IMG/VR virus record: IMGVR_UViG_3300009012_000004
Coordinates: 1-41,491 of that record
Strand: one strand, 5' to 3'
Length of the DNA stretch: 41,491 bases
DNA from: a virus
Below the pieces are notes generated by a model. That model did no database searches. It had not been told where the DNA came from and saw only the letters and a list, made by a program, of their open reading frames with translations. This document shows, in pieces, positions 8,501 to 39,686 of the stretch (its first letter is position 1; each line of letters opens with the position of its first letter). The translations under genes were made by a program, and so were the position numbers.

Positions 8501-8527
8501 TTGACACCGCCAGGTTCGAAACTGGCG
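8501..8527 (+). promoter_or_regulatory. TTGACA box with hairpin
   Basis: TTGACA (8501-8506) is followed by CGCCAG (8508-8513) and CTGGCG (8522-8527) around an 8-base loop. It is one of the repeated start modules of the rightward genes. Here the codon at the expected distance is an in-frame CTG (8522). Confidence 0.55.
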
Positions 8528-9364
8528 ACGCCAGGTCTTGTTTTGAATCTCCAAACCGGTGAAGAAAGAGCGCGTTCGGCGCATCGCGATTATGCGCGGG
8601 TCTATAGCATTTGGATTCACTCGCTCGAGGAACAAGCGGCCGATGGAAACAAATCTGCCCGTACTGAGCTCAACGAATTAAAACTTCTTAGCAAAGGAAA
8701 GCATGGCGATGAAAATTTATTGGCCCCAGCCAAATACGAATGGCCTTCGCGCCGAAAAACAGGCGGCGACGATGCCGACGATGAGTTTGGAGACCCAGCG
8801 GATTTGGCGGTCGATTGGACTGATCCGCGCGAATCGGTTGTCGATTTTGAATCTGTCACCGGCTCAGAGTTGGAAGAATTGTGCGACCATTTCAGCAGCG
8901 CGCTGGTTTGGGCGACAACCACTTCTCGAAGCAACGGCAGCGCGCCGGATTTGATGCAGATGGGCGCGCGCTGGCTTTGCATCTTCAATGTTTTCCGGCC
9001 GCAACTAATCGGTGAAATGCATTTGCGATTGCCCCTCGCCATGATTGCCGGATTGCGCTCTTCCTTAAACGGCCGCGATCCCCTCGAAACCGGACGATTT
9101 TTTCGCAAGCCGCTCGCCTTAGTCCGCAAATGCACTTCGCTTCTTCAGCTCGGAAAACGCGGTTACTCAGCCATTTATGTTTTGCGCGGTGATCTAATCG
9201 GCTCGGCCACCTGCGCCGCCATTGGCGCGCTCGATAATAAATCGCGCCAGGCCGCCAATAAACCGATTCAGGAATTCAGAGACACATTCCGCGGCATGAA
9301 AAGTCTGCCGATGAGAGGAAAGGAAACTAGAAAACGATGCAAAAAAGCACAGGAAAAGAATTAG
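8501..9364 (+). CDS. Unknown protein, about 280 aa, start uncertain
   Basis: The frame is open from a TTG at 8501 and has no in-frame ATG or GTG for a long way. Other possible starts are CTG at 8522, inside the hairpin arm as in sister modules, and TTG at 8543. The protein has an N-terminal helical region (about 20-75) and a very acidic stretch (GGDDADDEFGDPADLAVDW). A mostly helical C-terminal half and a basic tail (KETRKRCKKAQEKN) follow. The family is not recognised. It overlaps the next gene by 28 bases, so the two are probably coupled. Confidence 0.6.
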   Translation: MTPPGSKLATPGLVLNLQTGEERARSAHRDYARVYSIWIHSLEEQAADGNKSARTELNELKLLSKGKHGDENLLAPAKYEWPSRRKTGGDDADDEFGDPADLAVDWTDPRESVVDFESVTGSELEELCDHFSSALVWATTTSRSNGSAPDLMQMGARWLCIFNVFRPQLIGEMHLRLPLAMIAGLRSSLNGRDPLETGRFFRKPLALVRKCTSLLQLGKRGYSAIYVLRGDLIGSATCAAIGALDNKSRQAANKPIQEFRDTFRGMKSLPMRGKETRKRCKKAQEKN

Positions 9365-9918
9365 CAGTCCGGAAAAACGAATGGGCCGGACTGCTCAAGG
9401 AAACGCTGGAACATCATAGGGAATGCGAAGCAGCGCGCGGCGCAGTCACTAAATCACAAGACCTTTCGATGTTTCACGCGTGGCAAGCCGGCATTCGCTT
9501 GAATAAGATCAAAGCAATCGTCGGCCGCGGAAATTGGCAGACTTGGATTGAGGAAAACTTCTCTGCCAGTATCGATACCGCGCAAATCTATATGCGAATC
9601 GACAATCAGAATCCTGAGCAGCGAGAAATCAAGAATCCAAAAACCGAACACGTTCGGTTTTTAGAATTCGACACCATTCGAAAATACGCCATCGGATTTG
9701 CGCCGGAGAAGGATCAGCCAGTCCACAAAGGCAATGCCAAGTTCGGTCGCTCAGTGAGCTTTCTAAATATTACGAATGAGTTCGATCGGCTCGAGTATCG
9801 GCACACGAGCGGCTTGCAGATGGTGGACTTCGAGGAAGCGCGCGAAGAAACAAAACGACTTTATCTTTGGTTACGCTGGTTGCACGGCGACAGCGAAGAG
9901 AATCCTTGGCTCGTCTAA
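9337..9918 (+). CDS. DUF3102-like phage protein, 193 aa
   Basis: Residues about 45-95 read AWQAGIRLNKIKAIVGRGNW followed by WIEENFSASIDTAQIYMRI. This fits the DUF3102 pattern of a helical domain with 'G--L---K--V-HG-W--W---N---S---A--YM', found in phage and plasmid proteins near ParB or replication genes. The C-terminal half (FDRLEYRHTSGLQM, YLWLRWLHGDSEENPW) has no match I know. A DNA-binding or partition-like role is plausible. It lies between an unknown gene and terminase. Confidence 0.65.
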   Translation: MQKSTGKELAVRKNEWAGLLKETLEHHRECEAARGAVTKSQDLSMFHAWQAGIRLNKIKAIVGRGNWQTWIEENFSASIDTAQIYMRIDNQNPEQREIKNPKTEHVRFLEFDTIRKYAIGFAPEKDQPVHKGNAKFGRSVSFLNITNEFDRLEYRHTSGLQMVDFEEAREETKRLYLWLRWLHGDSEENPWLV

Positions 9919-10035
9919 GATCCCCAGCCCAATGCCGCGGTCGCAGCCTAATTTTTCCATCCCCCACCTAGATAACTTTTACCCAAACCCTGCCCGGGCG
10001 CCGCTGATCCAACTGTCGTCGTTTTCGCACGAATT

Positions 10036-10737
10036 ATGAAAAATATAACTTCCAGCACTGACATTTGGGCGCTGGGAGTGCAGAAAAGGCCAAAATATTT
10101 CGCCAATAGCTGGGAAAATCTGGCGAAGCTGATTTCCGAGCTGATTGAGATTTCGATCACTCCGCGCGCGCTGCAAAATTGGCGGAATGATCTGCGATAT
10201 AAGTCTCATTGGCCGAGGCCGAAATCGGGACGGCATGATGCGAGGAAATGGATCGCATTTATTCTGCGTTTCGGGCTCAAAAGGGCGGATGAAGTGGTCG
10301 ATCCGAGCGAAATTCCGGAAGAAAGGCGGACGATTCGGGATTGGAAAGATCATCGCGAGAAACTGCTCTGCACCCAGCTCGAGCGCGCAATCTTACGCGA
10401 CGATCGCATCCTTCTCGTTGCAACCGAGATTGAAATTGCGATTGGCCAGCTTATCGCTGGCGTTTCCGTTGCGCTGGATCATTTTGCGCCGAGCGCGGCG
10501 CGTTTCGTGGTCGGGCTGCGCGATATTCACGATGTTCAAGCCAAACTGCAAAGCGAGATCGATGCGGTAAAACAGCGGATCAATGCGGCGCATTATCTCG
10601 ATGAATGCGAAGAGGCTGCGAAACCATATTTGCAGCGGATCGGGCGATTGCTTTTGGCGGATATTCGCGGCATTCGATCACAAAAGGCTGTGACAGCCAC
10701 GCGCAAGCGTGGAACTAAAGCTGCCGGAAAAGAATAA
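10036..10737 (+). CDS. terS: Terminase small subunit (Nu1-like)
   Basis: The protein lies directly upstream of the large terminase and overlaps it. The N-terminal part (ISELIEISITPRALQNWRND) is a helix-turn-helix that would recognise the packaging site. Then comes a linker and long amphipathic helices (CTQLERAILRDDRILLVATE, and further on FVVGLRDIHDVQAKLQ) for oligomerisation, as in lambda Nu1. The basic tail (TATRKRGTKAAGKE) may contact DNA. The 117-base spacer upstream has a GCCCGGGC palindrome near 9990 but no obvious promoter. The final codons contain a TGACA box and hairpin that set the start of the large subunit. Confidence 0.7.
   Translation: MKNITSSTDIWALGVQKRPKYFANSWENLAKLISELIEISITPRALQNWRNDLRYKSHWPRPKSGRHDARKWIAFILRFGLKRADEVVDPSEIPEERRTIRDWKDHREKLLCTQLERAILRDDRILLVATEIEIAIGQLIAGVSVALDHFAPSAARFVVGLRDIHDVQAKLQSEIDAVKQRINAAHYLDECEEAAKPYLQRIGRLLLADIRGIRSQKAVTATRKRGTKAAGKE
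10691..10712 (+). promoter_or_regulatory. TGACA box with hairpin over terL start
   Basis: TGACA (10691-10695) is followed by CCACGC (10697-10702), loop GCAA, and GCGTGG (10707-10712). The GTG start of terL (10709) lies inside the right arm, 13 bases after the box. The module sits within the coding end of terS. Confidence 0.6.
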
Positions 10738-12799: not shown

Positions 12800-12833
12800 C
12801 GAGTTGAACAACTGAGCCGACCGAGATTGTCAA

Positions 12834-12852
12834 TGACACGCCCGCAAAGGGC
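12834..12852 (+). promoter_or_regulatory. TGACA box with hairpin before beta-helix gene
   Basis: TGACA (12834-12838) is followed by GCCC, loop GCAAA, and GGGC ending at 12852. The ATG at 12853 follows with no gap, 14 bases from the box. Confidence 0.55.
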
Positions 12853-15084
12853 ATGCGTTTCATCGTTGCAGCCATTTCTTCGTTCTTGCTTCTTAATTCG
12901 TCCTTCGCGGCTGGTCCCGCTCTTCAGCCGCCGCTCGTTTTAGTAAACGCCAGCACAGGCGTGCAGGTGCCGTTCGTAAATGGTATCAACATCGATCCCG
13001 CGCAAGGCACGCTCTGGTTTGTGAAGGCACCAGCGAACAGCCGCACCAGCAGCGTTAAATTCCGTTTAGATATCGACGCGTCCACTTGCGATAACGATAG
13101 GCCATTTACTAGCCAGCCGGGATTGCCAGTGCTCGGCGCGCACGCGCTCAAAGTAACTCCTTACTCGCGCAATAATGGCGATGGCACTGCCGGCGCACCA
13201 TCCACAATCACTTTTACCGTCGCTTCCGAACCCGATCCGACACCTACTCCAATTCCTGATCCGACGCCGACGCCTTCGCCTTCGGTAACGCCTTCCCCGA
13301 GTCCAACGCCAACTCCCACTCCGACAGCGACGCCTGAGCCTTCTCCGACTCCGACTTCTTCCCCAACTCCAACGCCTCAGCCAAGTCCAACCCCAACTCC
13401 ATCGCCAACTCCTGATCCAACGCCAACGCCTTCGCCTTCGCCTTCTCCAACGCCGGATCCATCGCCCACTCCTACACCTTCTCCATCACCGACGCCAAGC
13501 GGCAATGTGATCGCCACCGATGGTTCGCTTGGAAATGTTCAATCGGCACTCATCTCCGCATCTGAAGGCGATACCATCACGCTCCCGGCCGGCACATTTA
13601 ATTGGGCGAATCAGCTCGTAATCACGAAAGGGATCACGCTCCAGGGGCGGACTGTAATCACCGGCGCGGGAACAAGTGGCGCGACCGCCGATGATCAAAC
13701 CGTCATTCTCGATGATTTCTCGCCCACTAATTTAGACAGCCCGCTCATAAAAATCACGCTCAACGCAGCGCAAAGTTTTCGCCTTACCGGACTCACCATT
13801 CGTCCAAATCTGAGCACGGGTACGCATATAATCTTGGGCAGCAGCGGCAGCGCTGCGGTGACGAATCTTCGGATTGATCACAATCACTTATCCGGCTCGA
13901 CTGATCGGGAAGTCTGGACTGGCGGATGGGTCTATGGCGTAGCCGATCACAACATCGTTGCTCCCGCAGGTAACGGGCAATGCTTCTTTGTTAATATGCC
14001 CACCTATGGCGGAAAAGAGACCGGGCATGGCGCATGGGCTGATTATCCTTGGTTCGGCACCGGCAAATTTTTCTTTATTGAAGACAATACGCTCATCGGT
14101 AACGGCGTGACCACGACGAGCGGCCTCAGCACCGATGGCGAGTTTGGCGCGCGTTTCGTCATGCGTTACAACGATTGCACAAATAGCCATGCCGGCTTTC
14201 ACGGAACCGAAGGCGGCAATCGCGGCACGCGCGCGGTGGAAATCTATAACAATGCTTTCCATTGGACGATTCCGCCGAATGCATTGAATCGGTCAGGAGT
14301 CGCATTCTATCACGACAACTCTTGGACTGGCTCAAAGTCGAATAGCGGCACCCACTCAATCATACAAATTTACCGCGAATTCGCGGGCGTAGGCTCGAGC
14401 TGCATTTATGGGTTTGCAGACGGCACCGGCCTTTTCGATATGAATGATACTGAGGGCGACGGCAGGTTTATCCAAGGCCACGCGCCATTTGTTTTCGCGA
14501 GTGGAACCGTGACCACTGGAAACGCGGTCACGGGATCGCCGGTTACTATTACTGATTCCTCACAGAATTGGATTCCGAATCAATGGGTCGGCTACAGCAT
14601 CAAACAAACCACTGCCGGCGCGGCTTCTTATCCCAAAGGCTCATACATATTAAGTAACACTGCCACCTCGATCACCTTCACCCGTTACATCACGACCGAT
14701 CGCGGCCCCATCCTGAGTTTCGCGGCGGGCGATACCTATCAGGTCCATCGGTTACTCATAGCGCTCGACCAAGTGGGACGCGGCAAAGGCGATCTTCTCT
14801 TTGGAAATCCCACGATCACGAACACAGTGGCCGGCCACACTTGGGCCTATCAAGCGCTCGAGCCTGCGATGAGCTGGAATAACGTGCATTCCGACGGCAC
14901 CGCTTATGGCTTTGGAAATGCCGGTATGCCCACCGAAGTGCAAGGCCGCGATTATTACAACTTAGGCAAAGGTCTTCCCACGAACGGGGCGCCTTCCCAA
15001 GTGACGACTATTTACACCGCAGCACGCAACGGCGTGGACTACATCGCCCCTTTCACTTACCCGCACCCGCTCACCCAGCGCTGA
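12853..15084 (+). CDS. Secreted or surface beta-helix protein with Pro-Thr linker, 743 aa
   Basis: Residues 1-19 are a signal peptide (hydrophobic [13 protein letters not shown], likely cut after SFA). A beta-rich domain (about 25-125) follows, then a long linker of PTP, PSP and PDP repeats (about 126-216). A right-handed parallel beta-helix fills residues 217-743, with repeated N-G-T turns. Such proteins bind or cleave polysaccharides. In phages they act as tail spikes, but a Sec signal is unusual there and common for secreted host enzymes. It is the first gene after terminase, preceded by a TGACA hairpin module. It could be a spike, a depolymerase released by the lysogen, or a captured host gene. 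Catalytic residues cannot be assigned. Confidence 0.75.
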
Positions 15085-15109
15085 ATTGACACCTGCACTT
15101 GGGGCAATC

Positions 15110-15220
15110 ATGGCCACAGGTTCAGTGCCTTTCTCCGGCAAATTAAAACCAAAGCTCATTCGCGGGATAAACCATCCCAGCTTTTGGCAGCGCCTGTGTC
15201 GTTTGATCAAAATCAAATGA
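15110..15220 (+). CDS. Small basic peptide, 36 aa
   Basis: ATG at 15110 lies 18 bases after a TTGACA box (15086-15091), and its stop overlaps the next ATG by four bases. The 36 residues are basic (KLKPKLIRGINHPSFWQRLC) with an amphipathic C-terminus. The box and the coupling argue that it is real; the function is unknown. Confidence 0.5.
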   Translation: MATGSVPFSGKLKPKLIRGINHPSFWQRLCRLIKIK

Positions 15221-19015: not shown

Positions 19016-20767
19016 TTACGGCTGGACTTCGTAGGCACCCATATCAACACGACCGCCCACGACTCTGGGATTGCCAAGAAAATCCGTCTCGCCAATCCCA
19101 AGAACAAAACCGGGATCGCCCGCGTTCTTGGCAGGAGAGATAGATTGAAGGCTTAAATCGGGCGGGCTTGCGGCAGCGTTGGTAAACTTCGGGTCGGCAA
19201 TAATCTTATTTGCATCCGGCCCAGAACCGTCTCCGAAATATAGATTATAGTTCATGGTTCCAACAGGCCAGCCCAGCGTGTTGATTTCATTGGTCGCGTT
19301 GTTCGCAACAATATTGTTCTTCCATACCACGCTCGCGCTGGTATATGGTCGGACGTAAATCCCGTAGAGGTTGCCGTAGGCCGTGTTGTTTAAGACGCTA
19401 ATGTTGTAAACACTTGAGCCATCCGTATCGCTATACCAAGTCCCGACTTCGATTCCGGCATGGACGTTGGAATAGGCCACGTTATCGCGGACTGTGATGT
19501 GGTGGGCGGCTGGCTGCCCTGGCTCAGCCAGAACAGCGAATCCGATGCCAGAATTGCGGACTAAGTTTCGCTCAATCGTGGAGGTATTCCCGCCATCGAC
19601 ATATATGGTGTTCGACCCGCCGTTGCCATACCAGGTGCTTCCATCTCGCTTTACGCTGACGTATTCGAGAAGATTCCCTCGAATAGTAGCGTCATGCGCG
19701 CCGCCGTGGAGGTCGATGGCGATCCCGTCAGCATCGTGGAAGTAGTTACTTTCTACGATGGTATTGGCGCAGGTGGTCGAATCCATCGTTAGCACTTCAC
19801 TCTGGCAAGTTTCAATATCTCCCATCTCGTTGCCGCGAATTGTGATAGCGTTGCTGCCCCATATTCGAATATGCAAGAGGGCGGAAGTGCCATCCTGAAC
19901 TCCGTGGATGTTTTTGTTGTGAAGAAACCTATTGTTGAGAAGCTGGACATCGTTGCTGCCCCCGTCGATCCTAACGCCCTGCTTGAACGAGCCGTTGCAG
20001 GTGTAGTTCTGGAAGGTTAATCCTTGGATTATAACGTAACTCTTGTTGCTGATGTTCAGGAATGGTGTGCTGTCGTTCGTGACCGTTCCGAGGTAGGCGT
20101 AATCAATAATAACCTGGTCGCCCGTGCAGGTGGTATAGCCATTGGCGGCAATGGAAGCCCCGCAGTTGGCTCCTGTGTAGCCGAGCGGCTGGAAGGTGAT
20201 GTAATTTCCCGCCGTTCCCGACACATTCAGGGCCAAGCGTTCATGATAAGTTCCCGCTTTAATGTTCACCGCGGAACCCACAGTGGCAGCATTCATCGAT
20301 TTCTGGATCGTCCGCCAAGGCGATAATTCAGAGCCAGGATTGGCGTCGTTGCCGTTGATCGGATCGACATAATAAGAAGTCGTCGGAGGCGGCGTTGGAG
20401 TCGGCGTAGGGGTTGGCGTAGGGGTTGGCGTCGGCCCCGGCGTCGTGACACTGACAACGTTGGACGGTGCTGAAAGGCCAGTTTGGTTATACGCTTTGAT
20501 CCTGTAGTTGTAGCTTGTGTTCGGAGCTACTGTCGTATCGCTAGCGGTCGTAACATTCGCACCAACGGTCGCTATGGTCGTATATGTTCCGCTAATTAAA
20601 CGTTGCAGCCTAAATTGCGTCTCATTGTTGGAGTTGTCCTGCCAAGCAAAATCGACGTGCGTCGCTGCAATCGCGATTGTGTGAAGGTTCGACGGGGCAG
20701 CAGGTACAACGGCATGGCTATGGCTGGCCGCTAGGATCGTCAGAATAAAAGAAGCGAGTCGGTGCAT
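19016..20767 (-). CDS. Secreted FN3 and beta-helix protein on the opposite strand, 583 aa
   Basis: Residues 1-19 are a signal peptide (FILTILAASHSHA). A fibronectin type III domain follows (about 22-109, with PSNLHTI, TSYNYRIKAYN and SAPSNVVSVTT). Then come a PTPTP linker (111-127), a DUF1565-like start (YYVDPINGNDANPG) and a right-handed beta-helix of about 400 residues. The C-terminus NPRVVGGRVDMGAYEVQP is typical of such polysaccharide-active or adhesion proteins in environmental bacteria. It is the only leftward gene in the late region, so it may be a moron expressed on its own. A TTGACT box (20789-20784) lies 16 bases before its ATG, mirror-imaged to that of the rightward neighbour. Confidence 0.8.
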   Translation of the reverse strand: MHRLASFILTILAASHSHAVVPAAPSNLHTIAIAATHVDFAWQDNSNNETQFRLQRLISGTYTTIATVGANVTTASDTTVAPNTSYNYRIKAYNQTGLSAPSNVVSVTTPGPTPTPTPTPTPTPTPPPTTSYYVDPINGNDANPGSELSPWRTIQKSMNAATVGSAVNIKAGTYHERLALNVSGTAGNYITFQPLGYTGANCGASIAANGYTTCTGDQVIIDYAYLGTVTNDSTPFLNISNKSYVIIQGLTFQNYTCNGSFKQGVRIDGGSNDVQLLNNRFLHNKNIHGVQDGTSALLHIRIWGSNAITIRGNEMGDIETCQSEVLTMDSTTCANTIVESNYFHDADGIAIDLHGGAHDATIRGNLLEYVSVKRDGSTWYGNGGSNTIYVDGGNTSTIERNLVRNSGIGFAVLAEPGQPAAHHITVRDNVAYSNVHAGIEVGTWYSDTDGSSVYNISVLNNTAYGNLYGIYVRPYTSASVVWKNNIVANNATNEINTLGWPVGTMNYNLYFGDGSGPDANKIIADPKFTNAAASPPDLSLQSISPAKNAGDPGFVLGIGETDFLGNPRVVGGRVDMGAYEVQP

Positions 20768-20783
20768 AATCGACCCGCAGCGA

Positions 20784-20817
20784 AGTCAAAGGCAGCTTTG
20801 ACAGCCGCCGAGTGGCG
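20784..20817. promoter_or_regulatory. Back-to-back TTGAC boxes between divergent genes
   Basis: Arms GTCAAAG (20785-20791) and CTTTGAC (20796-20802, loop GCAG between) place a TTGACT box on the minus strand (20789-20784) and a TTGACA box on the plus strand (20798-20803). Each is 16 bases from the start codon of its gene (20767 and 20820). On the plus side CGCC, loop GAGT, GGCG (20806-20817) forms the usual hairpin next to the ATG. Confidence 0.6.
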
Positions 20818-20819
20818 AG

Positions 20820-21128
20820 ATGGCACTCGGAAACACCCAAAGCGGGCGCAGCAATTTATCCGCCTTCACCAAGGCGCTCGTCTCTTATGCCGAAGCGATC
20901 GGTGACGCCGATGCTTTGGAAACTGAGCGCGATGCGCTCTTTGATAAGCTTACCAGTGGCGCGGATGGCAAATCGATCATCGCATCCACGATCAACGGCA
21001 AATATTTCGGCTACCAAATCACCCTCACCCTTGAGGAAAAATTTCAGTGTTTCGTTAATGCGGTCAAAATCTTCAACGGCGCCGCCGGGGATTCTCCCGT
21101 CACCTTCATCGATTTCTCTTGGATGTAG
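20820..21128 (+). CDS. Small head protein candidate, 102 aa
   Basis: A 102-residue protein directly before portal. It has an N-terminal helical part (NLSAFTKALVSYAEAIGDAD) and a C-terminal beta part (YFGYQITLTLEEKFQCFVNA). A gpW-like head-to-tail joining protein often sits here, and the length and helix-then-strand order are compatible, but no diagnostic motif is seen. The start ATG follows a TTGACA hairpin module at the standard distance. Confidence 0.55.
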   Translation: MALGNTQSGRSNLSAFTKALVSYAEAIGDADALETERDALFDKLTSGADGKSIIASTINGKYFGYQITLTLEEKFQCFVNAVKIFNGAAGDSPVTFIDFSWM

Positions 21129-24701: not shown

Positions 24702-24737
24702 ACGCTCGGACATTGACAGCCTCCCAGAACTAACACC

Positions 24738-28495: not shown

Positions 28496-29103
28496 TTCTT
28501 TCCATTCTTACGCCCTCTGTCCCCTCGCGCCTCGAGCAGTTAAACGCTCTCCGCGCCATGCTGGCGTCGCAGATTGGCGATCAATTGGCGGTCGAGCATC
28601 TAATCCTGATCGATAACAAACGGCGCACCGTCGGCGAAAAACGCGATAACCTCTTGCGCATTGCCCTTGGGCGATATGTCGCCTTCGTCGATGATGATGA
28701 TTTCGTGAGCGAGGATTACATAAACGAGATTGTGGCGAGAACCTGGTCGAATGCGGATGTCATCACCTTTCGCCAGCTCGCTACTGTGAACGGTCAAACG
28801 GCCGAGATTCAATTCCGCCTCGGCAACGAAAACCAAAGCTTCCAGCCGGGCATGCTGGTGAAACGCAATGCCTGGCATATCTGCGCCTGGCGGCGCGAGC
28901 TCGCCCTTACCAGCCACTTTCCGGCATGGAATTACGGCGAAGATTGGGAGTTTGCCGCGCCCCTCTGCCGGATCGCTAAAACCGAGGAGCACATCCCGAA
29001 AGTGCTGCACTATTACAGGCACGACGCCAAGACCACCGAAGCGCCTTATCCTGGCACGTCGTTTCCAGCGGCCGATCAATTCCACGCTTTGACCGGCAAT
29101 TAA
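28492..29103 (+). CDS. Glycosyltransferase family 2, 203 aa
   Basis: A short GT2 enzyme: MILSILTPSVPSRLEQLNAL at the N-terminus is the first nucleotide-sugar binding strand-helix, VGEKRDNLLRIALGRYVAFV leads into the DxD-type metal site VDDDDF (residues about 64-69), and WNYGEDWEF (about 145) supplies the likely catalytic ED. The GTG start overlaps the stop of the 800-residue gene by four bases, so the pair is co-translated. It probably adds a sugar to the same glycan. A cytoplasmic location is likely, since there are no membrane segments. Confidence 0.8.
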   Translation: MILSILTPSVPSRLEQLNALRAMLASQIGDQLAVEHLILIDNKRRTVGEKRDNLLRIALGRYVAFVDDDDFVSEDYINEIVARTWSNADVITFRQLATVNGQTAEIQFRLGNENQSFQPGMLVKRNAWHICAWRRELALTSHFPAWNYGEDWEFAAPLCRIAKTEEHIPKVLHYYRHDAKTTEAPYPGTSFPAADQFHALTGN

Positions 29104-29176
29104 TAACCGCGGATTTCGCTGATAATCAGAAGAAAGAATTTTTCTTATCCGTGTTATCCGCGTAATCCGCGGTTAA
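29104..29176. repeat. CCGCGGATTACGCGGAT palindrome, copy 1
   Basis: Intergenic inverted repeat: it starts with AACCGCGGATTTCGC and ends with GCGTAATCCGCGGTT, able to fold into one long imperfect hairpin. Related copies lie at 29613-29703 and 31514-31601, with a half copy at 32357-32390. The type is one I associate with dispersed repeats of Verrucomicrobia. Confidence 0.8.
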
Positions 29177-29198
29177 TTTGACAAGAATAAGCAACCCG

Positions 29199-29615
29199 AT
29201 GCCCGCCACGCTCGAAGACGAACAGATCAATCTGAAAGAGTTGGTCGATCGCGGTGTAAAACTTTACCGCGAGACGCTCCCTTTAAAAAAGAAGCTGGAA
29301 GAGCTGGAGCAGATCAAAGCGATTCTGCGTGAGGAAGCAAAGGGTCGGGATCACGATTTCTTCGGGACCGGCGGCAACATCGCGCGGGTCGAACAAAAGG
29401 CCGATACCATCGCCCGAGTGGTGGTGGAGGAGAATGTGCCGCGTGCTGCCAGGCTATCCGGTGAATCTCTGACCGATCTTTTCACCATTCATCCCAGCAA
29501 AGGGAATGAAAAGAGTTTCGAACTAAACGCGCTCAAACTTCTGACGAAACGCGCGGCGCAAAGCCTGATCGATCTCCTTACCGTTCCAGCTACCGCTTGG
29601 GTTCGATTTTCTTAA
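29199..29615 (+). CDS. Helical structural or assembly protein, 138 aa
   Basis: The start ATG 29199 lies 15 bases after TTGACA (29178-29183); an upstream TTG in the same frame is the box itself. The N-terminal 60 residues are coiled-coil-like (VKLYRETLPLKKKLEELEQI). The rest is mixed, with LTVPATAWVRF at the end. It is the first gene of the tail and connector region. No family recognised. Confidence 0.55.
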   Translation: MPATLEDEQINLKELVDRGVKLYRETLPLKKKLEELEQIKAILREEAKGRDHDFFGTGGNIARVEQKADTIARVVVEENVPRAARLSGESLTDLFTIHPSKGNEKSFELNALKLLTKRAAQSLIDLLTVPATAWVRFS

Positions 29616-29703
29616 CCGCGGATTACGCGGATATCGCTGATAAAAAGGCAGAGAGATCCCTTTCTGAGTCTCTTATCCGTGTTATCCGCGTAATCCGCGG
29701 TTA
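29613..29703. repeat. CCGCGGATTACGCGGAT palindrome, copy 2
   Basis: Ninety-base inverted repeat between two structural genes, beginning TTAACCGCGGATTACGCGG and ending with the complementary sequence. It starts within the upstream stop codon region, so it may also act as a transcript end or stability element. Confidence 0.8.
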
Positions 29704-29711
29704 GTCCATAG

Positions 29712-29732
29712 CAACGCGCTTGCGCGTTGACA
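29712..29732 (+). promoter_or_regulatory. Hairpin fused to TTGACA box
   Basis: CAACGCGC (29712-29719) pairs with GCGCGTTG (29722-29729), and the right arm runs into TTGACA (29727-29732). The box is 16 bases from the ATG at 29749, which supports that start over the ATG at 29737. Here the hairpin lies before, not after, the box. Confidence 0.5.
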
Positions 29733-29748
29733 GCGCATGGTGGGCACT

Positions 29749-30111
29749 ATGGCAAACCTCAGTGCAATTTCCGTCTCGAGCTCGCTTTCCTATTCGGCGA
29801 ATAAAGTCTCAGCCAAACTTTCTACAACTTTTAGCGCCGATCAGGCTGGCAATTTTTTCGAATCCGGCATCCAGAGTGTCGGCACCACTGAGGAATCGCT
29901 CGATAAAGGTGATGTAGTCACCATCGGCAAGATCGCCGTGCGCAACATGGATGCGACCAATTACATCCAAGTCGGCCACCTCACCGGCAGCTATTCCATC
30001 AAGCTGAATCCCGGCGAAGGTTTCGCGGGACTCACATGGGGCGGCAGTTCCGTCTTCGTAAAAGCCAATACCGCCGCCTGCAACGTCGAATATCTCATCG
30101 TCGAGGCATAG
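29749..30111 (+). CDS. Putative structural protein, 120 aa
   Basis: A beta-rich, Ser/Gly/Ala-rich protein (NLSAISVSSSLSYSANKV, GDVVTIGKIAVRNMDATNYI, GGSSVFVKANTAACN). The segment VRNMDATNYIQVG resembles a motif I have seen in small phage structural proteins ('RNLD-TNYI-VG'). Probably a head-tail or tail component. Its stop is followed at once by a small GTCCG/CGGAC hairpin. Confidence 0.55.
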   Translation: MANLSAISVSSSLSYSANKVSAKLSTTFSADQAGNFFESGIQSVGTTEESLDKGDVVTIGKIAVRNMDATNYIQVGHLTGSYSIKLNPGEGFAGLTWGGSSVFVKANTAACNVEYLIVEA

Positions 30112-30157
30112 TCCGAGCCCGGACAAGCGATTCCGCCATTGACGCGGCGAGAACGTT

Positions 30158-30553
30158 ATGGCGCTCGAAATAATTCTCGGAGATAGCCCCACCGACGAAG
30201 GCGGGTTACTCCTTCAGCCTTCTCCACTCAATCGCGTCGATTCCGAATTTACGCGGCTAATAAAGGCCGCGTTTAATGACATGGTTACCCTTGTCGGCGT
30301 CCCGATCGTTTTCGGTTCAACCACCAAGCAATGCATTGCTGGGGCAATCAAGCTCGAGACCATCGTGGAACCCGTCGGCAGGGTAAATGACTCCAGCATT
30401 CAGGTCACGATGCTGGCCCAGGATTTCGACGAGTTCGACGTCATCCCAAGTTTAACCAAATGCGCGATCGATGGCGAGATAATGATCGTGACCAGCATTC
30501 AGCGCGATCCGCAGGATCCGTGCGTGGAATTTCGCGCCATCGGACAGAGCTAA
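30158..30553 (+). CDS. Putative head-tail connector protein, 131 aa
   Basis: An alpha-beta protein (DSEFTRLIKAAFNDMVTLVG, then SSIQVTMLAQDFDEFDV and GEIMIVTSIQRDPQ). It lies where stopper and adaptor proteins are found, before the tail genes. The mixed strands with GEIM..TSIQRDP suggest an FII- or gp6-like fold, but I cannot prove it. Its ATG lies 13 bases after a TTGACG box variant (30139-30144). Confidence 0.5.
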   Translation: MALEIILGDSPTDEGGLLLQPSPLNRVDSEFTRLIKAAFNDMVTLVGVPIVFGSTTKQCIAGAIKLETIVEPVGRVNDSSIQVTMLAQDFDEFDVIPSLTKCAIDGEIMIVTSIQRDPQDPCVEFRAIGQS

Positions 30554-31119: not shown

Positions 31120-31143
31120 TTGACATAGCGCGAGTGGCGCTAT
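31120..31143 (+). promoter_or_regulatory. TTGACA box with hairpin over the start codon
   Basis: TTGACA (31120-31125) is followed by ATAGCGC (31125-31131), loop GAGTG, and GCGCTAT (31137-31143). The ATG at 31142 begins within the right arm, 16 bases after the box. This is the cleanest example of the module. Confidence 0.65.
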
Positions 31144-31513
31144 GCCTTTGTTCACTTCAGACGGAAATATCCCGTTCGGTTCGGAAATCGTGACCATCAA
31201 CGCGACCGAATACGTTGCGGAGGAAATCGATTTTCATGAGAAAAGTTCGAAATTTTACCGCCGCGACGAACGCAACATCCCAAACGGCGGCGTCTATATC
31301 GAAGACATCACCGAAGGAACGATGACGCTCCAGCTCGGAAGCCTCACCACTCCCATTCCCGAAAATCAATCGCTCGTCACCATTCCATTCCGCGGCGCCA
31401 GTGTAGTTTTCGTGATCACGGACGTTTCCCAGCCTAAAAAGCAAAACGACATTCGGAAGATGAAAATGACGATTACTCGCATTCTCAATCCGACCAACGT
31501 CGTGACGGGATAA
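31142..31513 (+). CDS. Putative tail tube or tail structural protein, 123 aa
   Basis: A beta-rich protein (EIVTINATEYVAEEIDFHE, GGVYIEDITEGTMTLQLGS, KMKMTITRILNP). The small size and beta-strand pattern resemble tail tube or tube-initiator proteins, but no signature is decisive. It lies between the completion protein candidate and a gene that may encode an assembly factor. Confidence 0.45.
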   Translation: MPLFTSDGNIPFGSEIVTINATEYVAEEIDFHEKSSKFYRRDERNIPNGGVYIEDITEGTMTLQLGSLTTPIPENQSLVTIPFRGASVVFVITDVSQPKKQNDIRKMKMTITRILNPTNVVTG

Positions 31514-31601
31514 TTTTAACCGCGGATTACGCGGATAAAACGCGGATAAAAAATAGTTCTGAATCTGATCCGTTTCCCATCCGCGTAATCCGCGGTTAAA
31601 A
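31514..31601. repeat. CCGCGGATTACGCGGAT palindrome, copy 3
   Basis: Intergenic inverted repeat from TTTTAACCGCGGATTACGC to the matching GCGTAATCCGCGGTTAAAA. It is followed directly by a TGACA hairpin module for the next gene, showing that repeat and start module are separate units. Confidence 0.8.
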
Positions 31602-31603
31602 AA

Positions 31604-31625
31604 TGACACGCCGGGATAAAGCGTG
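31604..31625 (+). promoter_or_regulatory. TGACA box with hairpin over the GTG start
   Basis: TGACA (31604-31608) is followed by CACGC (31607-31611) and GCGTG (31621-31625) around a 9-base loop. The GTG start (31623) is the end of the right arm, 14 bases after the box. Confidence 0.5.
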
Positions 31626-32393
31626 AAGAGGGAAGATGCACCGGAATGGGTTAGGCAACTTGATGACCTCTATGATCGCGCAATCGCGCGGGCCGATCGC
31701 CTCCATGATTATTGGCGCGATTACGCGTTCCTTGGCTTAGACGAAGAGATTGGCATCGCCGGCGATCCCGAGACGCGCGCTGCTCGCATAGTCCGCGTGC
31801 GCCAGCTTACCCTCCAGATGTTTATTGAACTCTGCGCCGTGCGCTCGCCCTTCCTGGTCGGCGGCCCGGTCCGTCCTGAGCATGTCGCGCAGATACTCTG
31901 GCGATTATCGCCAGAATATTCAGAGATCAGAGATCAGAGATCAGAGATCAGAAAAGACAATCAGCTCTCTGGTCCGACCTCTGACCTCCGACCTCTGACA
32001 TCTGAACAAACGCCTCGCCAAAAATTTATTGAAAGAATCGCGTCGTTACCATTCCGCCCCAGCGTGCGCGCCATCAGCCGTTACCTCGACCGGATGCTGA
32101 TCGACCGGCCGGCCTCGAACGCGAAAGCAAACGGCGCAGGCGCCGATACCAGTTTCGCCGCTTCGGTGGTTCACGCCTTCGCGTCTCTATATGGCTGGAG
32201 CGATGAAACTATTTTGAACCTGCCGATGCCGGCGCTTTTTCAATATTTGCGCAAAATCCAACAGCATCACAATCCAGAAGCGATTAGCTTTTATCCGTTG
32301 CGCGATCGCGTTACCCAAAAAATCTTTCAGAAATATCAGGAGAGGAAGAAATCCGAAACCGCGGATCACGCGGATAACGCGGATAAGGAATAA
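31623..32393 (+). CDS. Unknown tail-region protein interrupted by in-frame repeats, 256 aa
   Basis: The N-terminal 100 residues are helical (DDLYDRAIARADRLHDYWRD). Residues about 100-128 (EIRDQRSEIRKDNQLSGPTS and on) are the translation of an inverted-repeat minisatellite. The helical C-terminal domain follows. The tail KSETADHADNADKE is half of a CCGCGGAT palindrome. Without the repeats the protein would be about 210 residues. Its position before minor tail genes would suit a tail assembly chaperone, but this is a guess. The start is GTG 31623. Confidence 0.55.
   Translation: MKREDAPEWVRQLDDLYDRAIARADRLHDYWRDYAFLGLDEEIGIAGDPETRAARIVRVRQLTLQMFIELCAVRSPFLVGGPVRPEHVAQILWRLSPEYSEIRDQRSEIRKDNQLSGPTSDLRPLTSEQTPRQKFIERIASLPFRPSVRAISRYLDRMLIDRPASNAKANGAGADTSFAASVVHAFASLYGWSDETILNLPMPALFQYLRKIQQHHNPEAISFYPLRDRVTQKIFQKYQERKKSETADHADNADKE
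31921..31997. repeat. In-frame inverted-repeat minisatellite, copy 2
   Basis: Four or so AGAGATC-type heptamers, a short spacer, then CCGACCTCTGACCTCCGACC-type repeats complementary to the left side. It is the same design as 27474-27545 and again keeps the reading frame open. A perfect CTGGCGAT/ATCGCCAG palindrome lies directly before it (31899-31914). Confidence 0.8.
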
Positions 32394-32399
32394 ACAGAA

Positions 32400-33587: not shown

Positions 33588-33606
33588 TTGACTCCGCATG
33601 GGAGTC
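33588..33606 (+). promoter_or_regulatory. TTGACT box within a hairpin before tape measure gene
   Basis: TTGACT (33588-33593) overlaps the hairpin GACTCC (33590-33595), loop GCATG, GGAGTC (33601-33606). The GTG start of the tape measure gene is at 33608, 14 bases after the box. Confidence 0.55.
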
Positions 33607-33607
33607 T

Positions 33608-35158
33608 GTGGGCGATGTTAGCGTAGAACTTGGGATCGATGCAAAGGAGCTTTATCAAGAGCTCCAAAACGTTACCGCCCGATTCGTTCAGTTCTCGCAA
33701 ACAGTAGAGAAGGCGGGCAATGTGCCCAACTTCGGGCAACCGATCGTTGAAGGGCACGAAAATGTTCTGCGCAGCAGCCATCGCGTCGCCTCGCAGATAG
33801 AGAGCTTCAGCCGCACCCTCGTCGCCAGCAGCAATCCGATCCAGATTTTCGCAAGCGGTCTTAGCGCACTTGAGCGCTCATTTAACATACCTTTGGGCGC
33901 ATTGGCTGCGATAGGCATTGGAGCGGAGCTCTTCACCGAAATCGCCAAAGGCGTCGCGGAATACAAAAAGCTCAACGCAGAGGTCGATAAACTGTCTGAG
34001 CCGCGGCCAAATGCGCAATTTCAGACCCTTAAAGATATCGAGACCCAGGCCAATGCCACTCAGAAAGTTCTTGAAAAACTAAGGGGGCAGCAAGGCGAAG
34101 AGGGAGTCGGGCATGGCGGCTTGATTCACGACTTAATCGCCACCGTCTCTCTCGGCAATGAGAAGGGGGCGACTGAAGGAATCGCAGGCCTTATCCACGA
34201 AGTGCGCGAAAAACGGCGCGGGCAGATTGCCGGACTTGAGGAGCAAGAGGCTATATCGCAGACCGGGCAGATTGAGAAAGAGCAAAAGAAAACAGAGATC
34301 GCGACCGCTCATCTCAATCAGGGCGAGTTCACTTCAGAGCGGATCAAAATCAATGCCGAGTTCGATGAAAAAATCGGTCACGCCGCGGAAACGACAGGGT
34401 CGCGAGGCGTCGTTGAACTCGATAAACAGCGCACCATTGCTCTGGCTGAAGTCGATAAAAAGGAACAGGAAGAAAAAGCCAAGGAAGAGGAGAAGAAACG
34501 CAAAGAAAGGGAGAAAGAAGAGAAAGAAAAGGAAAGGGAGCAAAGCAAACTGGAGACCTTGCGCGAGAGTGTTGCGAAGAAAGAGCACACGCAGCATCTC
34601 GACGAGCTGCCATACGAAGAACGGCATGCCGAACTGAAGGCCGATGCCGATAAGTTACTGGCTGGTTCAAACGATCAGAAAAAGGACGAGGAAGACCGTC
34701 TCGATCTGAAATCGAAATACTTGGATCTGGTTAAACAGATCGGAGAGGAGGAGGAGAAGCATTCCAAAGAATTAAAGCGCGACGCAGAAGCGCAGACTCG
34801 CGAACGTGAGAAAGCCGCACGCGAAGCAAAAAAAGATTTTCGGCACGACGACGCTGAGCGCAACCGCGGCAACGCGCAGCTGACCTTGCAAGATTTAGCC
34901 GAGCATGGCGATCTCATCGGCGGCCCCGGCGGCCAGGCTAGAGCAGCGCTACAGGAAGAAGCGGCGGCCCGACAATCTGCGCTGCATGGCGATGTCGAAG
35001 GCGCGACTGGACACCAAAGTCGAGCACAAGAGATCAAAGATTCGATTGGAGTCTTGAAAGACTCAGAGAAAAGCAGCGAATTCAAGAAAGCGCTGGAGGA
35101 TGCCGCCGTCCTGATAGCGATCGAGAAGAACACCAAAGACATGGGGAAGAACAGATAA
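33608..35158 (+). CDS. Tape measure-like coiled-coil protein, 516 aa
   Basis: The N-terminus (GDVSVELGIDAKELYQELQN) is typical of tape measure proteins. A hydrophobic segment follows (NIPLGALAAIGIGAELFTEI, about 95-115). Long helical, Lys/Glu-rich stretches (about 265-330 and 370-440, with EEEKKRKEREKEEKEKE) then predict coiled coils. Such proteins set tail length and are often the longest phage gene; at 516 residues a short tail, on the order of 75 nm by the usual 1.5 angstrom per residue, would result. No lytic domain is seen. GTG start at 33608 by the box rule. Confidence 0.7.
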   Translation: MGDVSVELGIDAKELYQELQNVTARFVQFSQTVEKAGNVPNFGQPIVEGHENVLRSSHRVASQIESFSRTLVASSNPIQIFASGLSALERSFNIPLGALAAIGIGAELFTEIAKGVAEYKKLNAEVDKLSEPRPNAQFQTLKDIETQANATQKVLEKLRGQQGEEGVGHGGLIHDLIATVSLGNEKGATEGIAGLIHEVREKRRGQIAGLEEQEAISQTGQIEKEQKKTEIATAHLNQGEFTSERIKINAEFDEKIGHAAETTGSRGVVELDKQRTIALAEVDKKEQEEKAKEEEKKRKEREKEEKEKEREQSKLETLRESVAKKEHTQHLDELPYEERHAELKADADKLLAGSNDQKKDEEDRLDLKSKYLDLVKQIGEEEEKHSKELKRDAEAQTREREKAAREAKKDFRHDDAERNRGNAQLTLQDLAEHGDLIGGPGGQARAALQEEAAARQSALHGDVEGATGHQSRAQEIKDSIGVLKDSEKSSEFKKALEDAAVLIAIEKNTKDMGKNR

Positions 35159-35945: not shown

Positions 35946-35968
35946 CGCGTTGACTCGTTTAACTTGGC

Positions 35969-36964
35969 ATGGCTCAAGCAGGTAGATTAAGCGGCGATTT
36001 CGCCATCGATGGAAACCTCAGCATCTCCGGAACCATCTCCGGTCAAAGCCGCGCCGGACTGACGGCCGACACCACTCAATCCTACGAGCTGCCCCTAACG
36101 GACTTCCGGGTTTGGGATGATTTCTCTATCGCCCTGCCCGATACCGCTTCCACTTCGGCGCTGATTGTTCCTTCCATCCGCTATGATGCCACCGTTGCCG
36201 ACACTATCTTTTTTGTTTCCGACCGCGATTATCGCGTCGTCGGCATAACCGGACGCCCGGAAGTGGCCGGAACGGGCGGTGCTTGCACAGCCATCATCAA
36301 GAAAGCGGCTTCCGCGACCGCGATCGCCAGCGGCACAGCGCTCCATTCGAGCTCATTTAACTTGGTGGGCACCGCGGCCACGAACCAAGTTCTTACTCTT
36401 TCCACCACTCTCAGCGATCTGGCCATTGCCGCAGGCAATTGCATAGGGTTCGATCTCACCGGCACGCCTACCTCGGCGGTCGGTGCGGTCTCGGTCTTTC
36501 TGATCCCAATTTCGCCGGATGACCTCGCCATCTCTAGCGGCGCGTTCGCGACCGGCCTCCCCTATATTCATACCGGCAATCTAAAGAGCGCTGGTGCCAC
36601 CACTCGTTATGCGCGCACCATGTTCACCTTGCCGCCTGAATATGTCCCCGCCGGCGCCTGCCAACTGCGCTTCGCCAGCGGCATGCTTACCACTGTCTCG
36701 GATACCAGCGCGACGATTGATTGCGAATGTTACAAAACCGCGCGCAACACTCTGAAAACCGGCAGCGATCTCGTTTCCACTAATGCTGGCAGCATCAATT
36801 CGCTCTCTTTTGTCGAAAAAACTTTTGATCTGACTGCCTCCGGATTGGTGGCAGGCGATGTGCTCGATATTCGAGTGACGATTGCAGTAAACGATTCGGG
36901 CACTGTCACTGTGGTAGAAGGCGCGATCGCGCACGCGGAAATGCTTTTAACCGTCAAAGGATAA
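35969..36964 (+). CDS. Putative tail fibre or decoration protein, 331 aa
   Basis: The N-terminal repeat-like start (GRLSGDFAIDGNLSISGTIS) is typical of tail fibre or trimeric beta structures. The rest is Thr/Ala/Ser-rich beta, with DTIFFVSDRDYRVVGITGRP and a C-terminal domain ending in GAIAHAEMLLTVKG. I infer a fibre or tail-tip role from composition and position. Its ATG lies 13 bases after TTGACT (35950-35955), without a clear hairpin. Confidence 0.55.
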   Translation: MAQAGRLSGDFAIDGNLSISGTISGQSRAGLTADTTQSYELPLTDFRVWDDFSIALPDTASTSALIVPSIRYDATVADTIFFVSDRDYRVVGITGRPEVAGTGGACTAIIKKAASATAIASGTALHSSSFNLVGTAATNQVLTLSTTLSDLAIAAGNCIGFDLTGTPTSAVGAVSVFLIPISPDDLAISSGAFATGLPYIHTGNLKSAGATTRYARTMFTLPPEYVPAGACQLRFASGMLTTVSDTSATIDCECYKTARNTLKTGSDLVSTNAGSINSLSFVEKTFDLTASGLVAGDVLDIRVTIAVNDSGTVTVVEGAIAHAEMLLTVKG

Positions 36965-37946: not shown

Positions 37947-37953
37947 GCGAGGC

Positions 37954-37973
37954 TGACAGCGCCCGCTTGGGCG
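37954..37973 (+). promoter_or_regulatory. TGACA box with hairpin before first lysis-region gene
   Basis: TGACA (37954-37958) is followed by CGCCC (37960-37964), loop GCTT, GGGCG (37969-37973). The last G of the right arm is the first base of a GTG codon at 37973, 14 bases after the box. Confidence 0.5.
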
Positions 37974-38227
37974 TGGGCAATTCGGTTCTAGTTGTTCTTT
38001 CCGTTGGCGGGATGTTCTCCCCCGTTCTCTTCGGTTATACCCTCTGGAAGATGAGCCAGGTCTTCGTATCGCGGCTTGAATTTGGCGAATATAAAAAAAT
38101 GGCAGACGAACGCCGGGGCGAAATCAATACTCAGCTTTCCACGATTCAGTTAAACGTGATCGAGCTATTGCGCCGAAGCGCCGCGATGGAAGCAATTCTG
38201 CAAGAGCGTTACCCGCGGGCGTCTTGA
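37973..38227 (+). CDS. Single-span membrane protein, 84 aa, lysis region
   Basis: The hydrophobic N-terminus (VLVVLSVGGMFSPVLFGYTLW) spans the membrane and a helical, charged C-terminus follows (EYKKMADERRGEINTQLSTI). The shape suits a pinholin, antiholin or inner-membrane spanin-like protein. I chose the GTG at 37973 because it fits the box and hairpin spacing; the frame is also open from a TTG at 37967. It precedes a lipoprotein gene. Confidence 0.5.
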   Translation: MGNSVLVVLSVGGMFSPVLFGYTLWKMSQVFVSRLEFGEYKKMADERRGEINTQLSTIQLNVIELLRRSAAMEAILQERYPRAS

Positions 38228-38246
38228 CAACACGCGCGCCAGCGTG
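38224..38246 (+). promoter_or_regulatory. TTGACA box with hairpin over the GTG start
   Basis: TTGACA (38224-38229) overlaps the upstream stop and is followed by CACGC (38231-38235), loop GCGCCA, GCGTG (38242-38246). The GTG start of the lipoprotein gene (38244) ends the right arm, 14 bases after the box. Confidence 0.6.
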
Positions 38247-38840: not shown

Positions 38841-38886
38841 GGAAGTCGGCCGTCCCGGCTGACCCAGCGGTCGCGAACGCGACCGA

Positions 38887-38935
38887 ACAGGCGGGACGCC
38901 TGTCTTCCACCTTTGCGGCTTTGCGCCTTTGCGTG
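38887..38935. repeat. Two dispersed palindromes between lysis genes
   Basis: ACAGGCGGGACGCCTGT (38887-38903) is a palindrome around GGGAC. The 24-base CGCAAAGG-type repeat follows in inverse orientation (38912-38935), exact reverse complement of 26100-26123. They fill the space between the lipoprotein and holin-like genes and keep the frame open upstream of the latter. Confidence 0.75.
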
Positions 38936-38962
38936 AAAAATTTGATCCGCTGGATTTCTCGA

Positions 38963-39178
38963 ATGTTGAGCGAGGCCGATGGCACGCCTTCGACCAAGCG
39001 CGTTTGTTTTTTTAGCACGACGCTCGCCTGCATCATTTTCGCGAGCGGCCTTTTTCTTTCCAAGAATGCGCCACTCGCGATCGATCTCTCGAAATGGCTC
39101 CTCACCACCGCCGGCGCCGCCTATGGCATCACCCGATGGGCTGAGTATGGCAAAGGCGATGGTCCGCCGCCCGCATGA
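38963..39178 (+). CDS. Holin-like membrane protein, 71 aa
   Basis: From ATG 38963 the protein reads MLSEADGTPSTKRVCFFSTT, a soluble start with the 'SE--G-PSS-R' pattern of small phage holin-like proteins. A first membrane span follows (LACIIFASGLFLS), then a second weaker one (WLLTTAGAAYGITRW) and a charged tail. The frame continues upstream to ATG 38837, but that part is made of dispersed repeats, so I do not count it. The stop overlaps the next gene by four bases, linking it to the cell-wall enzyme. Confidence 0.6.
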   Translation: MLSEADGTPSTKRVCFFSTTLACIIFASGLFLSKNAPLAIDLSKWLLTTAGAAYGITRWAEYGKGDGPPPA

Positions 39179-39663
39179 GCTTCCTTCAAGGCGTTCTAGA
39201 GCTGCTCGCGAAATTATTCGGCAAATCGAAAGCTGAATCTCAATCGGATAATGCCAGTCCGGCATCGGACCATCATCATGTGTTGGCTTCTTCATTCGCT
39301 GACCCGGCGGACGTGGCGGCATTCCGCCGCTGCAAAGCGCGCGGCGGCACCGACCAGGAATGTTTCAAAACAGGTGACAATGGGATCGGCCTTTGGGGCG
39401 ACGATACAACCGGGCAGATCCCAATGTGCGCGCTTCCACCCGAGGATATGATCGAGCGTTGGGGCGCGATCGACGCCGCACGCCGCAAAAAAGTTTATGT
39501 CAGCGCGAATGCTCGCGATGTGGTCTGCCTGGTCACGGATCGGATGCCGCACCGAGCAAATATAAAAAATGGCGCCGGGATCGATCTCAATTATGCAGCC
39601 TGCTCCGCTCTCGGTTTAACGCCGCCGGTGATGGTGCGCGCGATTTGGAATTGGCTTTCTTGA
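39175..39663 (+). CDS. Double-psi beta-barrel, RlpA-like protein, probable cell-wall enzyme, 162 aa
   Basis: After an N-terminal helix (FLQGVLELLAKLFG) and a linker, residues 36-160 follow the RlpA-like double-psi barrel pattern: VLASSFADPADVAAF, GIGLWGDDTTGQIPMCALPP, VVCLVTDRMPH with Asp122 as the conserved acid, and AGIDLNYAACSALGL. Related phage proteins sit at endolysin positions and are thought to cut peptidoglycan glycan strands. No other endolysin is visible, so this is the best candidate. The linker (SDNASPASDHHH) is partly encoded by a dispersed 22-base repeat. ATGA overlap with the holin-like gene. Confidence 0.65.
   Translation: MSFLQGVLELLAKLFGKSKAESQSDNASPASDHHHVLASSFADPADVAAFRRCKARGGTDQECFKTGDNGIGLWGDDTTGQIPMCALPPEDMIERWGAIDAARRKKVYVSANARDVVCLVTDRMPHRANIKNGAGIDLNYAACSALGLTPPVMVRAIWNWLS
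39249..39270. repeat. GTCCGATGCCGGAC dispersed repeat, copy 2 (inverse)
   Basis: Exact 22-base reverse complement of 30554-30575. It lies in frame in the linker of the cell-wall enzyme, before a run of histidine codons. Confidence 0.8.
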
Positions 39664-39686
39664 CAATGGGCGCGCCAGTGTGCGCC
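39660..39686 (+). promoter_or_regulatory. TTGACA box with hairpin over the GTG start
   Basis: TTGACA (39660-39665) is followed by GGCGC (39669-39673) and GCGCC (39682-39686). The GTG start (39680) overlaps the right arm, 14 bases after the box. The loop region GCCAGTGTGC is nearly the same as in the module at 38224. Confidence 0.6.

Follow-up and report, generated by a model that had tools for sequence, protein, structure and literature searches.

A TTGAC start box at a set distance before phage genes that lack a Shine-Dalgarno sequence: a candidate protein-read initiation signal

The nearest described kind of element to the one reported here is the Start-Associated Sequence of Cluster K mycobacteriophages, with its extended form (SAS and ESAS). 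In the sections of PMC3203893 that describe them, SAS are 13-bp sequences (GGGATAGGAGCCC) with a Shine-Dalgarno (SD) core, typically located 3–7 bp from the start codon in the non-structural half of the genome. They are short, oriented repeats at many starts of related phages, are rare or absent in host genomes and sometimes contain the stop codon of the preceding gene; an inverted repeat accompanies approximately half of them, and their reader is not known (PMC3203893). We analyzed a 41,491-base virus record (IMG/VR IMGVR_UViG_3300009012_000004), hereafter the window, which comprises the whole record and carries a 123-base direct repeat at its termini. In the window, a TTGAC box recurs upstream of many start codons. 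The box is likewise a short, oriented repeat at the starts of related phages that sometimes contains the preceding stop codon, and it corresponds to an SAS in the general sense of a repeated, oriented element at a fixed distance before many phage starts. However, it comprises only 5–6 bp, TTGAC(A), lies 19–23 nt from the start codon, lacks an SD sequence and also precedes structural genes. The AGGAG core 3–7 bp from the start that marks Cluster K SAS was not found: among the 16 window starts listed in the initial annotation, where the box is 19–25 nt away, AGGAG, GGAGG, GAGGT and AAGGA occur at none, as that annotation had claimed. The box shares the logic of SAS but not their sequence, distance or SD core. 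We found no name for this module and no description of a TTGAC start box in the literature searched, most subscription papers lying outside that search.

NTGAC is present at the stated distance in all 16 of the listed starts, 19–25 nt before the start codon; TTGAC occupies an interval of this kind at 0.32% of plus-strand positions. Because these starts had been chosen by eye, unbiased tests were added. Among the 31 TTGAC occurrences on both strands of the window, 14 sit 18–25 nt before the ATG or GTG of frames of at least 60 aa; one of these (36957, minus strand) is antisense and probably a chance match. TTGAC and TGACA were the top two of all 5-mers located 18–23 nt upstream of window starts (13 and 14 occurrences, respectively, against approximately 1 expected), and one or the other was also the leading 5-mer in L043, L044 and the pooled G006/G007 contigs. 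In these labels, G006–G010 and the L-numbers denote phage contigs or loci, G008–G010 being the full contigs of L005, L010 and L037, and G003, G004 and G005 are host samples, the latter two of which also hold prophage regions. We then used gene calls made without reference to the box (ten phage regions, 509 starts, 60 nt upstream of each), and 91 of 117 upstream TTGAC were located at 18–25 nt; this was also the case for 19 of 26 in the full contigs G008–G010, and in the window alone 11 of 14 were located at 19–25 nt. In a larger set of distinct sequences, the numbers of starts at each distance were 8 (18 nt), 218 (19 nt), 120 (20 nt), 65 (21 nt), 107 (22 nt), 49 (23 nt) and 17 (24 nt), with 1 to 48 at each of the other distances from 6 to 59 nt. 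The start codon accordingly lies 19–23 nt from the box, and the counts fall off abruptly between 19 and 18 nt. A motif so short, and first picked by eye, invites the suspicion of chance or of a compositional artefact, but the first rank of the 5-mer both here and in three more phage sets, together with the excess at 19 nt over 18 nt and over distances outside 19–23 nt, leaves that explanation a barely appreciable probability. The TTGAC box is genuine.

The anatomy of the element was obtained from 271 non-redundant boxed starts, in which TTGAC is constant by selection. The consensus contained G before the box (0.59), A after it (0.59), C at +12 (0.52) and G at +16 (0.62) and +17 (0.64), and the GC fraction of the spacer was 0.69. 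The C and the GG constitute a second sequence element fixed to the box, which goes beyond the initial annotation. The GG holds positions +16/+17 (0.50–0.78) whether the start codon is located at 19, 20, 21, 22 or 23; because its distance to the box is fixed at every spacing, the GG is part of the box rather than of the start codon. It is present at these positions in 8 of the 16 window boxes. The element is (G/T)TTGAC(A>T>G)-N6-C-N3-GG, and its first T stands 19–23 nt from the start codon.

TTGACA is also the consensus recognized by sigma region 4 (the –35 hexamer). The hexamer is the same, but here it has no –10 element and the wrong distance to the start codon: no conserved position occurs between –45 and –2 of the box, no TATAAT-like signal was found at +22 to +29 in the 271 boxes, and a normal sigma-70 transcription start would fall inside the gene. 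A sigma-70 promoter was rejected on these grounds, in agreement with the initial annotation. One TTGACA in the window, at 5718, stands 37 nt before the ATG at 5755, a distance at which an ordinary –35 could lie.

The letters TTGAC are the constant part of the module, and this was also observed in orthologues that had not been selected for the box. For 14 boxed genes of the G004 prophage (159 loci in all, some of them on one contig, with 9–99 represented for each gene), exact TTGAC was retained in 423 of 469 distinct orthologous upstream sequences, or 406 of 418 without the terminase; exceptions occurred in B198 (31/37 retained), F150 (58/62) and M217 (23/25). The spacers diverge between orthologues, with columns reaching 1.5–1.9 bits of entropy in several genes. 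Among orthologue pairs in the ten regions, which were counted in both directions and are not independent, the box was kept in 123 of 139 pairs with at least 70% identity, 33 of 49 with 45–70% and 5 of 15 below 45%, and 9 of the last 15 kept at least 5 of the 6 letters of TTGACA. Several G009/G010 pairs with only 37–46% protein identity kept the box.

The box is also strict in its bases. At positions 2–5 of TTGACA, no single-base variant exceeded approximately twice the background (the highest was TTTACA, 10 vs 4.5), and wobble variants, which would keep a G-U pair, were not enriched (TTGGCA, 29 seen and 32 expected; TTGATA, 3 and 7). Position 6 accepts T and G, and position 1 slightly accepts G and C: mild enrichment was observed among the pooled phages for GTGACA (24 seen, 9.8 expected) and CTGACA (25 and 14.3) but not for ATGACA (8 and 14.2). 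Because variants that keep a G-U pair are not tolerated, the reader of the box would be a protein and not a complementary RNA. An SD or alternative 16S rRNA pairing was not supported by these wobble variants or by the 16S rRNA of G004, the one host 16S examined, which contains no GTCAA.

Relatives of the window's major head protein occurred in virus contigs and in metagenome-assembled genomes (MAGs), the latter labeled Verrucomicrobiota, Chthoniobacteraceae, Verrucomicrobiaceae, Verrucomicrobia and, once, Armatimonadota. Because the relatives sit in MAGs of the Verrucomicrobiota type, the host of the window is probably a verrucomicrobium, and the box-using viruses as a group appear to infect Verrucomicrobiota. 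L038 and L040, phage contigs with identical boxed sites, were binned to Verrucomicrobiota and Armatimonadota MAGs, respectively, and one of the two bin labels is probably wrong. One Verrucomicrobia MAG (G005) carries three related prophage-like regions, two on C45 and one on C11.

We also searched for the box in the host genomes, as the initial annotation had suggested, and the sampled host genes do not use it. No clear excess was observed in 200–262 kb each of G003, G004 and G005, where TTGAC 18–23 nt before long frames was seen 18, 9 and 17 times (23.6, 15.2 and 17.0 expected, respectively) and a stop-bounded test gave 5, 1 and 3 (2.3, 2.2 and 3.1 expected). These counts do not support host-wide use, and neither TTGAC nor TGACA was among the top six 5-mers of the three samples. 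The strict pattern GTTGACA-N10-GGCRTG occurred twice in the 5.7 Mb of G004, both times on a prophage contig. The same hosts displayed little SD signal: a GGAGG/AGGAG peak was absent in G004 and G005, and AGGAG was found 11 times vs 4.9 in G003. The part of PMC10783764 that treats this subject counts some Verrucomicrobiota and similar bacteria as SD-scarce, and names Akkermansia and IMCC26134 as such.

Use of the box is not universal. No signal was observed in the close head-protein relatives L006–L034 excluding L010 (3 vs 8.9), nor in the 30 listed starts of the Akkermansia phage Moulinsart. In the prophages, boxed genes include head and terminase genes as well as unannotated ones, and the integrase-like gene is boxed in all four prophage regions taken; the window's own integrase-like gene has no box. 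Because the box also precedes integrase-like and unannotated genes, it is not solely a late-gene signal.

The box is most frequent within operons and not at operon heads. In the gene calls of the ten regions, it preceded 11 of 199 genes separated from the preceding gene by less than 12 nt, 40 of 121 with a gap of 12–40 nt, 26 of 116 with a gap of more than 40 nt and 14 of 73 with an opposite-strand neighbor or none. None of the 19 window genes with a gap of less than 12 nt was boxed, although the gene at 10709, which carries a variant box, overlaps its neighbor. In 29 of 128 boxed starts, the preceding open frame, as defined by length only, ends at the TGA within TTGAC.

The initial annotation had further described a short stem-loop between the box and the start codon at about ten starts, with structure kept while sequence varies. 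In line with that count, folding energies of –5 kcal/mol or less were obtained for the region from –16 to +9 at 10 of the 16 starts. The mean folding energy from –14 to +9 was –6.0 for boxed window starts; dinucleotide shuffles gave –4.6, and 29 unboxed starts, which were listed by hand and of which one is a base off, gave –1.8. Control regions 60 nt downstream also exhibited stronger folding (z –3.0) and those 60 nt upstream did not (z –0.2). The folding excess was observed in G010 (z –4.6), was weak in the prophages (–1.0 to –2.2) and was absent at the boxed starts of G006–G009. No pair of spacer columns stood out for covariation among 350 box-aligned pairs in the 271 starts (mean z –0.06); the top scores were 3.4 (all starts), 3.7 (distances 20–23) and 4.4 (distance 19) when aligned by the box and 4.9 when aligned by the start codon, and the pairs scoring 4.4 and 4.9 lie within the gene, not in the spacer. 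When the first nine bases of the gene were added to the spacer, pairing exceeded that of GC-matched column permutations (z –6.0 and –4.9), whereas the spacer alone did not differ (0.3 and 0.1) and in-gene control windows went the opposite way (about +7 to +8). The lack of a standout column pair and of excess folding in G006–G009 is the kind of result that the initial annotation had itself named as contrary to its stems. Column covariation does not support the hairpin as the conserved part of the module, and the hairpin is a tendency, not a defining part; what stands of the initial interpretation is a repeated, strand-aware and SD-free start module.

We tentatively interpret the box, with slightly less than even confidence, as a protein-read start signal in place of the SD sequence, probably at translation initiation. 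In a fuller form, which we regard as possible and hold somewhat more loosely, the box would be a private phage code: a dedicated protein would read TTGACA-N10-GG at each gene and bring the ribosome to the next start codon, and host genes would be without the code. The box would then substitute for the SD sequence in hosts that hardly use it, with the ribosome recruited through it to the next start on a polycistronic mRNA. Re-initiation would serve those genes whose start adjoins an upstream stop codon, and the mostly unboxed state of close-gap genes is as expected in that case. Translation is favored by the use of the box within operons, the GC-rich spacer, the lack of a –10 element, the pairing of the start region and the SD-poor hosts.

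The main rival is a near-leaderless promoter, in which RNA polymerase with a phage or host factor would read TTGACA-N10-GG gene by gene and start transcription at approximately +17 to +19, leaving a leader of 0–5 nt or none. We consider it less likely than the translational reading. Several observations weigh against an action at translation, some of them by speaking for a promoter. The fixed distance from the box to the GG in a bipartite motif and the sharp lower edge at 19 nt would also suit a fixed 5΄ end of the transcript, and the resemblance to the –35 consensus, the strict base readout without wobble and the missing SD sequence at boxed window genes are equally compatible with a promoter. 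Boxes also stand back to back in two divergent gene pairs, whose start codons are 46 and 52 bp apart: window 20767/20820, and a pair on C11 of G005 comprising ParB-like and small-terminase-like genes (identified by eye), with GTCAACCGGTTGAC. These pairs are so close that separate promoters would fit only within the opposite gene. A strong stem followed by at least four T, including the two of the box, runs into the box in the manner of a terminator at 9 of the 271 boxed starts. Moreover, genes with gaps of less than 12 nt are sometimes boxed, as counted above; only 17 of 51 terminase orthologues retain TTGAC; none of 36 listed relatives of the major capsid protein has the box at this distance; TTGAC and TGACA are both missing from the six leading 5-mers of L005, L010, L037 and L038, although the full contigs of the first three show the placement given above; and the strict pattern gave 36 matches in 32 of 194 genomes of the phylum, compared with 13 for the reversed control. 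Shared ancestry may also contribute to the pairing signal in the permutation test.

A reader gene common to all boxed phages was not found, which also counts against a dedicated protein. A helix-turn-helix (HTH)-like family, recognized by eye, occurs in 7 of 10 boxed regions (G004:C28 23357–23902, G006, G009, G010 and the three regions of G005) and would suit a promoter factor as well; two members have CxxC pairs. Because it was not found in G007, G008 or the window, the family was rejected as a universal reader, and the same absence speaks against it as the factor of a promoter. Two members that were scanned gave no Pfam match above the cut-off and no PHROG match, and a single-sequence structural model was poor (predicted local distance difference test score, 62.8) and had no PDB match at E 0.001, so that no claim is drawn from it. 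Further points against a promoter are the absence of a –10 or AT-rich melting region in a spacer with high GC content, the preference of the box for gaps of 12–40 nt and the absence of RNA polymerase and sigma families among the window proteins scanned with Pfam, which represent part of the open reading frames (ORFs). The evidence is divided between translation, favored as described above, and transcription, favored by the fixed box-to-GG geometry, the sharp lower edge, the divergent boxes and the terminator-like stems.

Two further explanations would need no promoter. In the first, which seems improbable, a factor of the NusG/RfaH type would read the box on the elongating RNA polymerase, as a signal for pausing or one in the non-template strand, and would hand the ribosome to the SD-less gene. 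This would explain the pairing of a GC-rich spacer with the start region, the fixed geometry, the position within operons and the lack of a promoter. RfaH and its ops site are similar in that a short sequence and a hairpin aid the expression of SD-poor genes. To our knowledge, the box motif does not resemble ops. The sequences differ, ops acts per operon and the box per gene, and neither an RfaH homologue nor a NusG family was present among the scanned window proteins, relatives not having been searched; the argument is one of analogy. In the treatment of ops in PMC5995543, RfaH is recruited to a hairpin in the non-template strand. In the second explanation, which we regard as similarly doubtful, the box would be an mRNA processing site, with cleavage at a fixed distance releasing short-leader mRNAs from polycistronic transcripts. 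The fixed box-to-GG geometry and the sharp spacing edge are compatible with processing, but the first genes of divergent pairs are also boxed, and no candidate nuclease was seen, none having been sought.

The window encodes a terminase, a lambda-family portal, a ClpP-type head protease and a major head protein (PHROG/Pfam matches), sugar-transferase-type proteins and an integrase-like protein whose match is slightly under the Pfam cut-off. Within the protease gene, an internal TTGACA box at 24198 stands 21 nt before an in-frame ATG at 24219 (24198–24221, plus strand) that opens a C-terminal ORF of 160 aa (24198–24701 including the box). The nested ORF is coiled-coil-like by eye, has no Pfam family and is probably a scaffold. 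At 79 of 89 loci of relatives, the F150 start likewise sits in frame within the protease gene. The reading frame of the nested box mostly gives Val-Asp-Thr in relatives and Leu-Thr in the window; because the frame differs, it is the nucleotide sequence of the box that is kept. The C/Nu3 locus of phage lambda is likewise a nested protease–scaffold gene, in which an in-frame internal start in the head protease gene yields the C-terminal product, and the portal of the window is also of the lambda family. We know of no TTGAC box at the lambda internal start, in which respect it differs from the window.

The boxed sites of the window, given here from the box to the start codon and on the plus strand unless stated, comprise exact TTGAC at 12 of the 16 listed starts and one-base changes at four. 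TTGACA precedes ATG 15110 (15086–15112; a short frame of about 36 codons by eye), ATG 20820 (20798–20822; 102 aa), GTG 23604 of the head maturation protease (23584–23606), ATG 24738 of the major head protein (24713–24740), ATG 29199 (29178–29201), ATG 29749 (29727–29751), ATG 31142 (31120–31144), GTG 38244 (38224–38246) and GTG 39680 (39660–39682). The spacers at 29749, 31142, 38244 and 39680 form hairpins, and the TGA of the box at the last two is the stop codon of the preceding frame (ending at 38227 and 39663, respectively). The starts at 15110 and 24738, with spacings of 24 and 25 nt, fall outside the range of 19–23 nt of the wider set. TTGACG precedes ATG 30158 (30139–30160), and TTGACT precedes GTG 33608 (33588–33610; 516 aa) and ATG 35969 (35950–35971). 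The variant boxes are GTGACA before GTG 10709 of the terminase large subunit (PHROG; 10690–10711), whose start overlaps the preceding gene and where G006 and G007 have exact TTGAC at the same place; CTGACA before GTG 37973 (37953–37975); and ATGACA before ATG 12853 (12833–12855; 743 aa, with a hairpin spacer) and GTG 31623 (31603–31625). The last two sites are the least certain because ATGACA was not enriched in the pooled phages. An addition to the earlier list is the leftward gene at 20767, encoding a beta-helix/fn3 protein, with TTGACT 22 nt upstream of its ATG (20765–20789, minus strand), back to back with the rightward box at 20798. A candidate member is TTGACA followed 21 nt on by an in-frame CTG at 8522, a putative start (8501–8524).

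Other repeats were also observed in the window. A second start-associated element, GGAGCGGG and/or CCCGCTCC, lies within 55 nt upstream of 12 of 14 leftward starts examined (200–4790, minus strand), and in at least five of these (1063, 1318, 1569, 1773 and 4298; by eye) the element is a hairpin with the stop codon of the preceding frame in its loop. Inverted repeats CCGCGGATTACGCGGAT / ATCCGCGTAATCCGCGGTTA recur between genes at 29100–29175, 29615–29705, 31515–31600 and 32355–32395 (by eye), and three of them end within approximately 25 nt upstream of the boxes at 29178, 29727 and 31603. A terminator-like stem (GGGACG..CGTCCCGTTTTT; by eye) is located at 26043–26080, 3΄ of the gene that follows the major head protein gene.

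For gene calling in these phages, the box points to the nested scaffold-like ORF and backs many GTG starts. For SD-free start choice in these hosts, the box represents a sequence-specific mark that is conserved across many phages, and because this mark is sequence-specific and absent from the sampled host genes, its reader can be sought.

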